The position numbers were made by a program, and so were the translations under genes. A stretch of 21,118 nt of DNA from a virus: positions 1-21,118 of the IMG/VR virus record IMGVR_UViG_3300025889_001136. One strand, written 5' to 3'. Shown piece after piece: positions 12,241 to 16,037 of this stretch (its first letter is position 1; each line of letters opens with the position of its first letter). A model generated the notes under the pieces. That model was not told where the DNA came from. It worked only from the letters and a program-made list of their open reading frames with translations, and made no database searches.

Positions 12241-13296
12241 TTGAAAATCGCACTTGTGACTGACACACATTTTGGTGCTCGTAACGATAACCAGAATGTG
12301 AATGAATACTTCTATAAGTTTTATGATAATATCTTTTTTCCAGAGTTGGAAAAGAGAGGTATCAAAACGTGTGTGCATCTTGGGGATGTAGTTGATAGAC
12401 GTAAGTTTATCAGTTTCAAAATTGCCAATGATTTCCGTAATCGGTTCATCAATCGCTTTGCAGAGTTGGGTATCGACTTACACATTATCATTGGCAATCA
12501 TGATACCTACTACAAGAACACAAACGAAGTAAACTCTATGGAAGAACTTGTCGGTAGAGACAGGTGCAACATCTACACAGGCCCAGAGGTTGTAGAGTTC
12601 GATGGTGTTCCTATTCAGTTCATTCCTTGGATCAATGCAAACAACTACGAAGAGTCTATGTCTGCACTGAGTAAGTCCCCTGCACAGATTGCAATGGGAC
12701 ATCTTGAGGTAAATGGATTTCAGATGCACAAAGGTCACTTTGCCGATGGTGCATACGATAAGGAACTGTTTCGTAGATTTGATATCGTGATGAGTGGACA
12801 CTTTCATCACAAGTCAGACGATGGACAAATCTATTATCTCGGCACACCATACGAAATTTACTGGAGCGATTTTGAAGACCCTAGAGGTTTTCATATCTTC
12901 GATACAGAGACGAGAGAGTTAGAACGTATCGTAAATCCATACCATCTGTTTGAGAAGGTTTACTACGACGACACTACAACGGATTACACAGACTACGACA
13001 TGTCCAAGTTCAAGGACATGTATGTAAAGGTAATTGTGGTAAACAAGAAAGACCTTTACCAGTTCGATAAGTTTGTAGACAAACTCCTACAGGCTGACGC
13101 ACATGAGGTGAAGATTGTAGAGGACTTCTCTGAACTGGATGCAGAGAATGTATCAGATGACATTGTTGAGAACACAGAGGACACGATGACTCTGCTAGAG
13201 AAATATATAGATGAACTGGACGTTACACTGAGCAAGGACCGATTGAAAAATACGATGCGGTCACTTTATACAGAGGCCCAAGATTTAGAAATATGA
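12241..13296 (+). CDS. 47: Recombination nuclease subunit gp47 (Mre11/SbcD-like)
   Basis: 351 residues, close to T4 gp47 (339). The start must be the TTG at 12241: it follows the gp55 stop directly in the same frame, and the first metal motif begins only seven codons later. Metallophosphoesterase motifs are clear: D8 and H10 (VTDTHFG), D49 and D52 (HLGDVVDRR), N86-H87-D88 (GNHDTY), H154 (MGHLEVNG) and H187/H189 (SGHFHH). With gp46 it forms the exonuclease that resects DNA ends for recombination-dependent replication and helps degrade host DNA. The C-terminal end looks complete. Its TGA overlaps the ATG of the inserted restriction enzyme gene. Confidence 0.95.
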   Translation: MKIALVTDTHFGARNDNQNVNEYFYKFYDNIFFPELEKRGIKTCVHLGDVVDRRKFISFKIANDFRNRFINRFAELGIDLHIIIGNHDTYYKNTNEVNSMEELVGRDRCNIYTGPEVVEFDGVPIQFIPWINANNYEESMSALSKSPAQIAMGHLEVNGFQMHKGHFADGAYDKELFRRFDIVMSGHFHHKSDDGQIYYLGTPYEIYWSDFEDPRGFHIFDTETRELERIVNPYHLFEKVYYDDTTTDYTDYDMSKFKDMYVKVIVVNKKDLYQFDKFVDKLLQADAHEVKIVEDFSELDAENVSDDIVENTEDTMTLLEKYIDELDVTLSKDRLKNTMRSLYTEAQDLEI

Positions 13297-13814
13297 TTAT
13301 TGAAAATATAGAATTAATAAATTGTGATAAGAATATTAAACTTTCAAAAATTATATCTTTTCTTGAAACAGATTTATCTTCACACTTTTATTTCAAGAAA
13401 TCTCTTGAATTAAAATCAAAAGGTAGAGAATTAGTTTCTCCAAAATCAATAAATGAAGGTTATAAAAATATATTTAATAAAAATGGATATGTCTCACTAA
13501 AACCTTTTGGAGATGAATGTGAAGTAGATTTTTATAAAGATCGTGTTGGAATTGAAATTCAATTTGGAAAATATGCTTTTGTTATATATGATTTGTTTGC
13601 AAAATTTAAGGTATGTTATGAAAATGATATTATTGACTTAGGTGTTGAAGTCATCCCATCTAAGAATTTAGCAAAAAATATGTCATCTGGTGTGCCGTCT
13701 TTTCCATCCGTTATGAGAAGTATTAATAGAATGAACATTGATTTTCCTGTCTGTTTGTTTGGAATTAATTTAAAAAATGAGAAACCTCTAGAAAGGGGTG
13801 TTTTACCAATATGA
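13293..13814 (+). CDS. BstYI/BglII-like type II restriction endonuclease
   Basis: 173 residues. The stretch DFYKDRVGIEIQFGKYAFVIYDLF followed by IDLGVEVIPSKNLAKNMSSGV and FPVCLFGI closely follows, from memory, BstYI (DFVKDRVAIEVQFGKYSFVAYDLF ... IDVGVEILPMKELSKEMSSGI ... APLVLIGI). The active-site set of this PD-(D/E)xK branch is present: Asp79, Glu88 and Gln90, with Gln replacing the usual Lys as in BglII and BstYI. The length is a little shorter than BstYI (about 203). The gene overlaps gp47 and gp46 by 4 bases each and is very AT-rich (about 18 percent G+C in several 60-base stretches against over 40 percent in neighbours), pointing to recent transfer. The specificity RGATCY is inferred from family. 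Confidence 0.85.
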   Translation: MIIENIELINCDKNIKLSKIISFLETDLSSHFYFKKSLELKSKGRELVSPKSINEGYKNIFNKNGYVSLKPFGDECEVDFYKDRVGIEIQFGKYAFVIYDLFAKFKVCYENDIIDLGVEVIPSKNLAKNMSSGVPSFPSVMRSINRMNIDFPVCLFGINLKNEKPLERGVLPI

Positions 13815-15523
13815 TTCATTTTAAATATGTACGTTGGCGAAACTTCCTATCCACAGGTAATAATTTTACAGAGATACAGTTAGACAGAAGTTCTACCACA
13901 CTCATTATTGGAGAGAACGGTGCGGGTAAGTCTACTATTCTTGATGCTCTATGTTTTGGTTTGTTTGGTAAGCCTTTTCGCAATATCAATAAACCCCAAC
14001 TACTTAACTCAATTAATAACGGTAATTGCGAAGTAGAGGTAGAGTTCAATATCGGTAAGAAAGAAATCAAGGTTATTCGTGGTATCAAACCAAATAAGTT
14101 TGAGATTTACATCAATGGTAAGATGTACAATCAGGATGCGAATTCCCGTGATTATCAGAAGTACCTAGAGCAGCAAATCCTAAAGTTGAACTACCAGAGT
14201 TTCACACAGGTTGTTATTCTCGGTTCTTCGACGTTCATTCCTTTCATGCAGCTGAAGGCAAAGCACCGCCGTGAGGTTGTTGAGGAAATCCTTGACATCC
14301 AAATCTTCTCACTGATGAACCTGTTGGTCAAACAGAGAATGAAGACCATCTCTGAAGACATACGAGAGATGGACTACAACATCGAACTAAACAGAGAGAA
14401 GATTTCTCTACAGGAGAAGTATATCTCTGAGGTGAAACAGAATAAGGACAAGTTGATTGAAGAGAAGACACTTCTGATTTCAAGTAATGAGGAAGAAGTA
14501 TTCAGTCGTAACTCTGAGAATGAGAAACTAAATCAACAGAAGGACAACTGGCTCACAGAGATTGCAGACAAGGATAAGATTGTCACAACGATGAGTAAGT
14601 TGAATAATCTGAAGTCCACTCTTCGTGAGAAACACAAGTCACACTCTAGTGTGGTATCGTTCTTTGAGAACAACGAAGACTGCCCCACCTGTCAGCAACA
14701 CATTGATGAGGCGTTCAAGTCTGGTATGATTGAAGACAAGATGGTTGAGGTGAACAAGTTCTCTTCTGCATTGGAAGAACTTGAGGACAAGATTTCAGAG
14801 GCAAAGAATCGACAGAGTGTTATCAATGACATTGTAGAGAAGATACGAGAGAACGAAGTACAGGTTGCAAAGAATAATCAATCTATCGTGCAACTAGAGA
14901 AGTTCAATGCCACACTATCTACAGAGGTCGCACAACTTGCAGATGAAGAATTGAGTAAGTCTGACTATGATAAGTTGAAACGTCTAAACAAAAAGATGAA
15001 AGGACTTGACGAACAGAGAAGTAAGTTGCGTGAAGACCAGACGTATTCTGATGCAGTTCGTAACATGCTACAGGATAGTGGTATCAAGACAAAGATTATC
15101 AAACAGTATCTTCCTATCATGAACAAACTCATCAACACTTACCTAACTTCGATGGAGTTCTATGTGAACTTCACACTGGATGAGAACTTCAACGAAACTA
15201 TCAAGTCACGGTATCGGGATGAGTTTACCTATGCATCATTCTCCGAAGGTGAGAAGATGCGTATCGACCTTGCACTACTCTTTACTTGGAGAGCCGTTGC
15301 AAAGATGAAGAACAGTACAAATACGAACCTGTTGATACTTGATGAAATCTTCGATAGTTCTTTGGACGGCACGGGAACAGATGAGTTCCTAAAGATTCTA
15401 AACACACTTGGTGATGAGAACGTGTTTGTGATCAGTCACAAACAGGATGCACTTGCAGACAAGTTCCGAAGCACTATTAGATTTGAGAAGATCAAAAACT
15501 TCAGTCATATATCAAATGGGTAA
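13811..15523 (+). CDS. 46: Recombination ATPase subunit gp46 (Rad50/SbcC-like)
   Basis: 570 residues (T4 gp46 is 560). Walker A GENGAGKS at 34-41, a zinc-hook CPTC at 291-294 between two coiled-coil arms, the ABC signature FSEGEK around 477-482, and Walker B LLILDE ending at D511-E512. With gp47 it makes the end-resection nuclease complex. The long charged stretches flanking the hook are coiled coil. The ATG overlaps the stop of the restriction enzyme gene by 4 bases, so translation is probably coupled to the insert. The end overlaps the methyltransferase gene by 8 bases. Confidence 0.96.
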   Translation: MIHFKYVRWRNFLSTGNNFTEIQLDRSSTTLIIGENGAGKSTILDALCFGLFGKPFRNINKPQLLNSINNGNCEVEVEFNIGKKEIKVIRGIKPNKFEIYINGKMYNQDANSRDYQKYLEQQILKLNYQSFTQVVILGSSTFIPFMQLKAKHRREVVEEILDIQIFSLMNLLVKQRMKTISEDIREMDYNIELNREKISLQEKYISEVKQNKDKLIEEKTLLISSNEEEVFSRNSENEKLNQQKDNWLTEIADKDKIVTTMSKLNNLKSTLREKHKSHSSVVSFFENNEDCPTCQQHIDEAFKSGMIEDKMVEVNKFSSALEELEDKISEAKNRQSVINDIVEKIRENEVQVAKNNQSIVQLEKFNATLSTEVAQLADEELSKSDYDKLKRLNKKMKGLDEQRSKLREDQTYSDAVRNMLQDSGIKTKIIKQYLPIMNKLINTYLTSMEFYVNFTLDENFNETIKSRYRDEFTYASFSEGEKMRIDLALLFTWRAVAKMKNSTNTNLLILDEIFDSSLDGTGTDEFLKILNTLGDENVFVISHKQDALADKFRSTIRFEKIKNFSHISNG

Positions 15524-16037
15524 ACGTTCAGACTTTGAAAGAAAACCTAGAGACTTCTACCCCACACCATTTGCGGCAGTAGAACCTCTAATCGACCATT
15601 TACCAAAGGGGTTCACGTTTGCAGAACCTTGTGCTGGTGATGGACAATTGTGCAGACACCTAGAACACTTTGGTGGCACTTGCATGTGGGCGAGTGATAT
15701 CGAACCACAGTTACATGGTATCGCAAGAAACAATTATACTGATATTGGTGAGAAAGAAGTATACGAGTCGGACTTCATTATTACAAATCCACCTTGGGAT
15801 AGAAAACTACTGCACCCAATGATTGAACACTTTGTGTCACTGAGGACCACATGGTTATTGTTTGACGCAGATTGGATGCACACCAAACAATCGTCTGAAT
15901 ATATAAAGTACTGTTCGAATATTGTGAGTGTTGGACGAATCAAATGGTTTGGTAATATGACAGGCAAAGACAATTGTGCTTGGTATAGATTTGAAACAAA
16001 TACGAATTACGCCACTATTTTTCATGGGAGAACATGA
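15516..16037 (+). CDS. DNA methyltransferase-like protein (Dam/N6-adenine type)
   Basis: 173 residues from the ATG at 15516 (MGKRSDFERKPRDFYPTP). An ATG at 15447 would overlap gp46 by 77 bases and adds an unconserved stretch. Motif I, AEPCAGDG at 36-43, would bind S-adenosylmethionine, and NPPW at 91-94 is the catalytic loop of amino-methyltransferases acting on adenine or cytosine. The later text TWLLFDADWMHT ... KDNCAWYRFE is familiar from many phage proteins of this type. The target-recognition part is short. Whether it protects DNA from the nearby restriction enzyme is open: the family also occurs alone. It overlaps the deformylase gene by 4 bases. Confidence 0.85.
   Translation: MGKRSDFERKPRDFYPTPFAAVEPLIDHLPKGFTFAEPCAGDGQLCRHLEHFGGTCMWASDIEPQLHGIARNNYTDIGEKEVYESDFIITNPPWDRKLLHPMIEHFVSLRTTWLLFDADWMHTKQSSEYIKYCSNIVSVGRIKWFGNMTGKDNCAWYRFETNTNYATIFHGRT

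Follow-up and report, generated by a model that had tools for sequence, protein, structure and literature searches.

Between gp47 and gp46, the genes for the two subunits of the recombination nuclease, the phage sequence we investigated carries a gene for a type II restriction endonuclease (REase) of the BstYI/BglII family. No cognate methylase adjoins the gene, and the sequenced DNA is free of RGATCY, the site that BstYI recognizes. With moderate confidence we lean toward the view that the gene encodes a functional, partnerless RGATCY nuclease, an accessory cassette at a homing-endonuclease-type site that spares its site-free phage and acts on non-self DNA. The window, i.e., the whole stretch of 21,118 nucleotides that was analysed, belongs to the record of a T4-like (Kyanoviridae-related) marine phage; by gp46 its closest cultured relatives are those of the Methylophilales phage Melnitz group (60% identity). 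Judged from Melnitz, the whole genome may be about 140 kb, of which about 36 kb is seen. The features discussed below are the following:

12241..13296, + strand: gp47, SbcD-like subunit of the recombination nuclease (phrog_100, 1.1e-104)
13289..13299, + strand: left copy of a 9-bp direct repeat, AATATGATT, at the insert's left edge (right copy within 13806-13816)
13293..13296, + strand: ATGA overlap of the gp47 stop and the REase start
13293..13814, + strand: BstYI/BglII-family type II REase gene, 173 aa, ATG start, without an adjacent cognate methylase
13527..13562, + strand: catalytic stretch DFYKDRVGIEIQ, aligned to BstYI DF.KDR..IE.Q
13527-13529, 13554-13556 and 13560-13562, + strand: codons of D79, E88 and Q90, respectively
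13790..13816, + strand: 3' tail of the insert, AGAAAGGGGTGTTTTACCAATATGATT, matching the 3' tail of the L466 HNH-like insert at 25/27 nt
13811..13814, + strand: ATGA overlap of the REase stop and the gp46 start
13811..15523, + strand: gp46, SbcC-like subunit of the recombination nuclease (phrog_77, 7.5e-175)
15516..16037, + strand: NPPW-motif DNA-methyltransferase-like gene downstream of gp46 (phrog_799, 3.5e-36)

The initial annotation had placed the gene in the BstYI/BglII branch of type II restriction enzymes and had recognized D79, E88 and Q90; both statements are borne out. The protein matches Pfam family PF09195, Endonuc-BglII, with 61.2 bits (cut-off 26, E=1.3e-16), phrog_28079 "restriction endonuclease II" (E=2.4e-23) and BstYI (PDB 1sdo, E=1.7e-21), and all matches in the Pfam, PHROG, PADLOC and PDB searches are BglII/BstYI-type or type II restriction endonucleases. 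When 39 relatives are combined into a profile, it recovers BstYI (2.1e-68), BglII (6.1e-10) and nothing else from the PDB, and the Pfam, PHROG and PDB profile searches gave no match to any established family of homing nucleases (GIY-YIG, HNH, LAGLIDADG). The catalytic Asp-Glu-Gln is found in the QFGKY region; D79, E88 and Q90 lie within the conserved stretch DFVKDRVAIEVQFGKY aligned to BstYI and, together with K93, are invariant across the alignment of 39 homologues. The AlphaFold model of the protein (mean pLDDT 89.5, pTM 0.85) retrieves BstYI (6.9e-13), BglII (5.5e-8), and BamHI and OkrAI (about 1e-6 to 1e-5) in Foldseek, and the predicted fold is BstYI/BglII/BamHI-like. The recognition sites of these four enzymes are GATC-centred. 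Profile, catalytic residues and predicted fold all agree on membership of the putative enzyme in PF09195. A scan of genome contigs with the single sequence gave no match; a profile scan yielded bacterial relatives in the hundreds, with identities of about 30-47%, too distant for any of them to be named as a donor of the gene.

As had been noted from the sequence, the gene overlaps gp47 (end at 13296) and gp46 (start at 13811) by exactly four bases, ATGA, on either side, and it is more AT-rich than its surroundings. The GC content of the insert is 0.25 compared with 0.40 for gp46, and because its third-position GC is 0.13, against 0.46 in gp47 and 0.48 in gp46, the gene has a foreign composition and is probably a recent arrival. 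Another, non-identical virus record of 36 kb (L001/G001), which differs from the window at 30 positions over 8.3 kb, contains the same REase gene with identical DNA; the gene's position therefore does not reflect an assembly join.

For each genome the expected number of RGATCY sites was computed from the GATC frequency plus the flanks on either side. The 36-kb record G001 has no RGATCY among 88 GATC (10.2 expected, P=1e-7). Among other T4-like phages with partnerless copies of the REase gene, which adjoin gp43 or gp44, the site is likewise missing from G011 (172 kb; 0 among 737 GATC, 92.2 expected, P=1e-66) and from G004 (10.0 expected), and G002 has two where 11.6 are expected. AGATCT, AGATCC, GGATCT and GGATCC are all missing from G001, G004 and G011, and the other three GATC flank classes are well represented in the RGATCY-poor carriers, which points to RGATCY, and not to the specificity of BglII or BamHI, as the avoided site.

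If the enzyme is indeed a partnerless RGATCY nuclease, it would be made as part of a gp47-REase-gp46 message and would cut double-stranded DNA at RGATCY, a specificity that we infer from the family and from the site avoidance. The phage would then be protected by the absence of RGATCY from its own DNA, not by methylation, and the targets would be the host chromosome (shut-off, nucleotide recycling) and/or co-infecting phages whose DNA retains sites. Between near-identical phages the cassette would be gained and lost, probably via recombination at short shared ends that resemble those of HNH-like cassettes using the same junction. The initial annotation had proposed that the putative nuclease attacks host or rival DNA, or helps its own spread. 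This fits the evidence, because no methyltransferase adjoins the gene, the sequenced DNA has no RGATCY, and the gene's tail is common to an HNH-like nuclease.

At 80 related gp46 loci, gp47 and gp46 mostly abut (ATGA/TTGA overlap or a few bases); other genes lie in between at about two dozen of these loci: 2OG-Fe(II)-oxygenase-like ORFs (named by eye), MT-A70 with a GNAT-like ORF, Mom-family DNA modification genes, HNH/endonuclease-VII-like ORFs, and kinases. The initial annotation had described the 46/47 region of T4-like phages as a known site of insertion. A review of T4 homing endonucleases lists no free-standing endonuclease at 46/47 in its table (PMC2988022); in the marine clade of the window, however, comparison of the loci marks the junction as a clear insertion site. 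Three phages whose gp46 sequences are about 98% identical illustrate three states of the junction: the window has the REase, L430 is empty, and L431 has an HNH-like ORF. Presence and absence are thus clean, and the gene is sporadic at this site, not ancient or universal, with D79 and E88 kept. A sporadic nuclease gene between conserved genes that is missing in a near-identical phage is a pattern expected of free-standing homing endonucleases, and the REase gene displays it. The 3' tail of the REase gene is identical at 25 of 27 nucleotides to that of an HNH-like ORF at the junction of L466, whose gp46 is 68% identical, and both proteins have ERGVLPI as their C-terminus; the similarity points to cassette ends common to different nucleases. 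A PF09195 search did not find the REase elsewhere in the close relatives G014-G037 and G038-G050, most of whose records are fragments.

The junction also holds Mom-family genes (PF25680) in L020 (L020:553-1434, 6e-52) and L051 (L051:4210-5004, 3e-53), and Mom-like genes were seen by eye at the junctions of L437, L439, L450, L465 and L468. The Mom gene of L020 is preceded in the same junction by a 181-aa ORF (L020:72-617) without a family match; it has a PD...EIK-like stretch, and its sequence suggests another PD-(D/E)XK nuclease. Accessory DNA enzymes in these phages (HNH-like, Mom, D12 and other methylases) have TLEAFL- or STLDAFFG-like ends (L431:5301-5765, L020:553-1434, L437:2270-3097, L439:290-1099, L468:1537-2364, L092:3090-4004, L110:4574-5701), as does gp43 of L090, L092 and L108. 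The motif may be a sliding-clamp binding peptide, or may in part be a by-product of the next gene's ribosome-binding site.

Copies of the REase gene are found at other positions in T4-like phages. Contigs of the L090 and L092 types have copies, 41-45% identical, after gp43 (DNA polymerase); the L090 copy has no methylase between or adjoining, and the L092 copy lies behind a D12-type methylase. In L108/G011 the copy is located just before gp43, joined by TAATG overlaps, in L106 it lies between gp44 and an HNH gene that is followed by gp62, and L104-L114 have a copy with a methylase-like gene farther off, before gp43. The L090 copy is missing from the 98%-identical L520/L521, with a repeat of ~20 bp at the insert ends, and the L092 copy was lost from the 99%-identical L352/L353 through a deletion of 507 bp, of which a MIVS* scar remains. 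On these gains and losses among near-identical phages, the gene is to be regarded as mobile and dispensable. The dN/dS between the L090 and L092 copies is about 0.11, an approximate value given a near-saturated dS near 2. Directly downstream of the REase in L092 are an ORF (L092:4605-5180) whose sole match is weak (S-AdoMet lyase family, 0.003) and which is possibly a nuclease, and an N6/N4 methylase (L092:5119-5925); the two are perhaps a second restriction-modification (R-M) pair in the same phage.

An alternative explanation, which we think unlikely, is that the cassette is above all a selfish element of the homing type: its enzyme would cut cassette-less genomes, gp46/47-dependent repair would copy the cassette, as for seg and mob, and any benefit to the phage would be incidental. 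The use of the same junction by HNH/EndoVII-like nucleases in near-isogenic and related phages, the 3' tail common to the REase and the L466 insert, the gain and loss of the REase among phages that are 94-99% identical, and the other copies beside gp43 and between gp44 and gp62, with the L106 copy adjoining an HNH gene, all speak for such an element, and the free-standing homing endonucleases of T4 also sit between conserved genes, many of them promoterless (PMC2988022). However, a short degenerate site would lead to many cuts per recipient, whereas homing enzymes have long, rare targets, and near-isogenic recipients offer little to cut since they are almost free of RGATCY (G038, without the REase at its junction, has one site in 50 kb with 11.0 expected).

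We regard as improbable that the REase is the nuclease of an ordinary R-M system whose methylase is encoded in the unsequenced part of the phage or is the NPPW methylase downstream of gp46. Methylase pairing is found in most family members, with an adjacent methylase in most other viral and plasmid relatives that have enough flank, and the NPPW gene matches a DNA methyltransferase PHROG. A cognate methylase elsewhere is possible because the sequence seen covers only about 36 kb, out of perhaps about 140 kb. However, no PF01555 or D12 (PF02086) match was found within the 36-kb record, and neither methylase family was found in the 172 kb of G011. A methylated genome need not shed every site, and the carriers with an adjacent methyltransferase-like gene (G008, G009, G012 and G013) keep RGATCY at 0.36-0.70 of expectation. 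The NPPW gene, moreover, is widespread in phages without the REase, including one with an ordinary RGATCY count (G043).

The NPPW methylase was rejected as the partner of the REase on account of its frequency in relatives without the REase, and a supposed tracking of RGATCY absence by NPPW presence in sister phages failed on a larger set: G043, L453 and L440 each have the NPPW gene plus RGATCY sites. In the L092 group, D12/Dam is unlikely to be the cognate methylase; its homologues are also present in relatives that lack the REase and have normal RGATCY counts. The NPPW gene is widespread in the clade and seems to recombine independently, because the copy of L432 is 96% identical although the L432 gp46 is only 72% identical.

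The distribution of RGATCY avoidance extends beyond the carriers in some lineages. Among relatives of G004, G011 and G002 collected via gp43/uvsX, the median RGATCY ratio is 0.95 over 161 contigs with at least five expected sites, some of which are near-copies, so that these do not represent 161 independent lineages; three of the 161 have a ratio of 0.2 or less, and one of the three is a carrier. Deeper relatives of G004 and G011 without the REase gene have RGATCY at expectation. In the window clade, relatives without the REase at the junction have no RGATCY where 15.6 (G041), 7.8 (G014) and 10.1 (G016) sites are expected, and in the gp46 clade around the window, 16 of 22 rows, including the window itself and L001, are free of the site. 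Near relatives of G002 are also low (L520, 3 seen and 9.2 expected; L522, 2 and 7.5). By these counts, avoidance is lineage-wide in the window clade and may predate the REase gene. Since gene-free kin also avoid RGATCY, the insertion alone did not cause the purge, and avoidance in the clade may reflect host restriction. Either host restriction purged the clade first and a methylase-free enzyme was then harmless, or a circulating gene selects for site loss even in phages that do not currently carry it.

Other sites are avoided as well. RTCGAY is missing from G011 (L225-L233, 172 kb; 78.8 expected), which may be due to a second enzyme or to host pressure of that specificity. RCATGY is entirely missing (ratio 0.0) from G008, G009, G012 and G013, where RGATCY is only partly reduced. 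Related T4-like contigs without any GATC (G028, 30 kb; G031, 60 kb sampled; L033, L048, L049 and L063) represent an extreme tetranucleotide avoidance.

The least probable reading, in our judgement, is that host restriction drives RGATCY avoidance and the REase is a stray recent arrival, perhaps inactive or differently specific. In its favour, avoidance is seen in gene-free relatives too, different R....Y sites are avoided in other lineages (RCATGY in G009, RTCGAY in G011), and the gene looks recent from its third-position GC of 0.13. Against it, no catalytic residue has been lost, purifying selection acts on the L090/L092 pair, and RGATCY is avoided by partnerless carriers in several lineages but not by deeper relatives of G004 and G011.

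Returning to a partnerless RGATCY nuclease that acts on non-self DNA, we tentatively put forward a bolder version, which we think rather doubtful: T4-like phages may harbor a class of mobile, methylase-free type II REases beside gp43, gp44/62 and gp47/46, with immunity gained by site purge, and the avoidance in gene-free kin would be the trace of an arms race across the population, with carriers destroying those co-infecting relatives whose DNA still contains the site. A restriction enzyme is usually considered safe only where a methylase is present. Several T4-like lineages, however, appear to keep the REase with no methylase found and with no or almost no target sites in their genomes. If this is correct, the phage's own sequence would be its immunity, restriction-site avoidance would be tied not to host defence alone but also to a weapon that the phage itself carries, and restriction enzymes would be linked to homing-endonuclease-type sites in T4-like phages.

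The enzyme family is known; as far as our searches reach, the setting, i.e., a partnerless gene in a target-free sequenced genome, at a homing-type site and in several T4-like lineages, is new. In the literature searched, whose coverage is incomplete, we found no paper dealing directly with a phage orphan REase combined with site avoidance, which is no proof of novelty. BstYI and BglII (PF09195; 1sdo, 1d2i) have in common with the window REase the fold, as predicted, the D-E-Q residues and the QFGKY signature, and the BstYI site RGATCY is exactly the one avoided by the phage genome. The window REase differs in its length (173 aa compared with 203 for BstYI), lacking ~30 residues of the N-terminal half and having a short C-terminal extension, and, unlike BstYI and BglII, it has no adjacent methylase and lies between two paired recombination genes of a phage. 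The only annotated phage matches, those of the Burkholderia phages BcepIL02 and DC1 (Lessievirus), are also phage-borne BglII/BstYI-type REases, but they are 32-33% identical to the window REase, have an adjacent methyltransferase gene, and do not belong to T4-like phages.

The seg and mob genes of T4-like phages are likewise sporadic intergenic nuclease cassettes that use their neighbours' transcription (PMC2988022); however, they encode GIY-YIG or HNH enzymes with long targets, whereas the window gene encodes a predicted type II REase fold with an expected degenerate site of 6 bp. Virus-encoded REases are known to act against host DNA in chloroviruses and against competing viruses in marseilleviruses (PMC7253447). 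In these R-M systems the virus protects itself by methylation, whereas in the window phage no methylase was found and the sites are missing. The intron endonuclease gp210 of PhiPA3 confers an advantage over a co-infecting phage (PMC11620839), as we suggest the window REase may do, but gp210 is a site-specific HNH homing enzyme in an intron, whereas the window enzyme belongs to a restriction-enzyme family.
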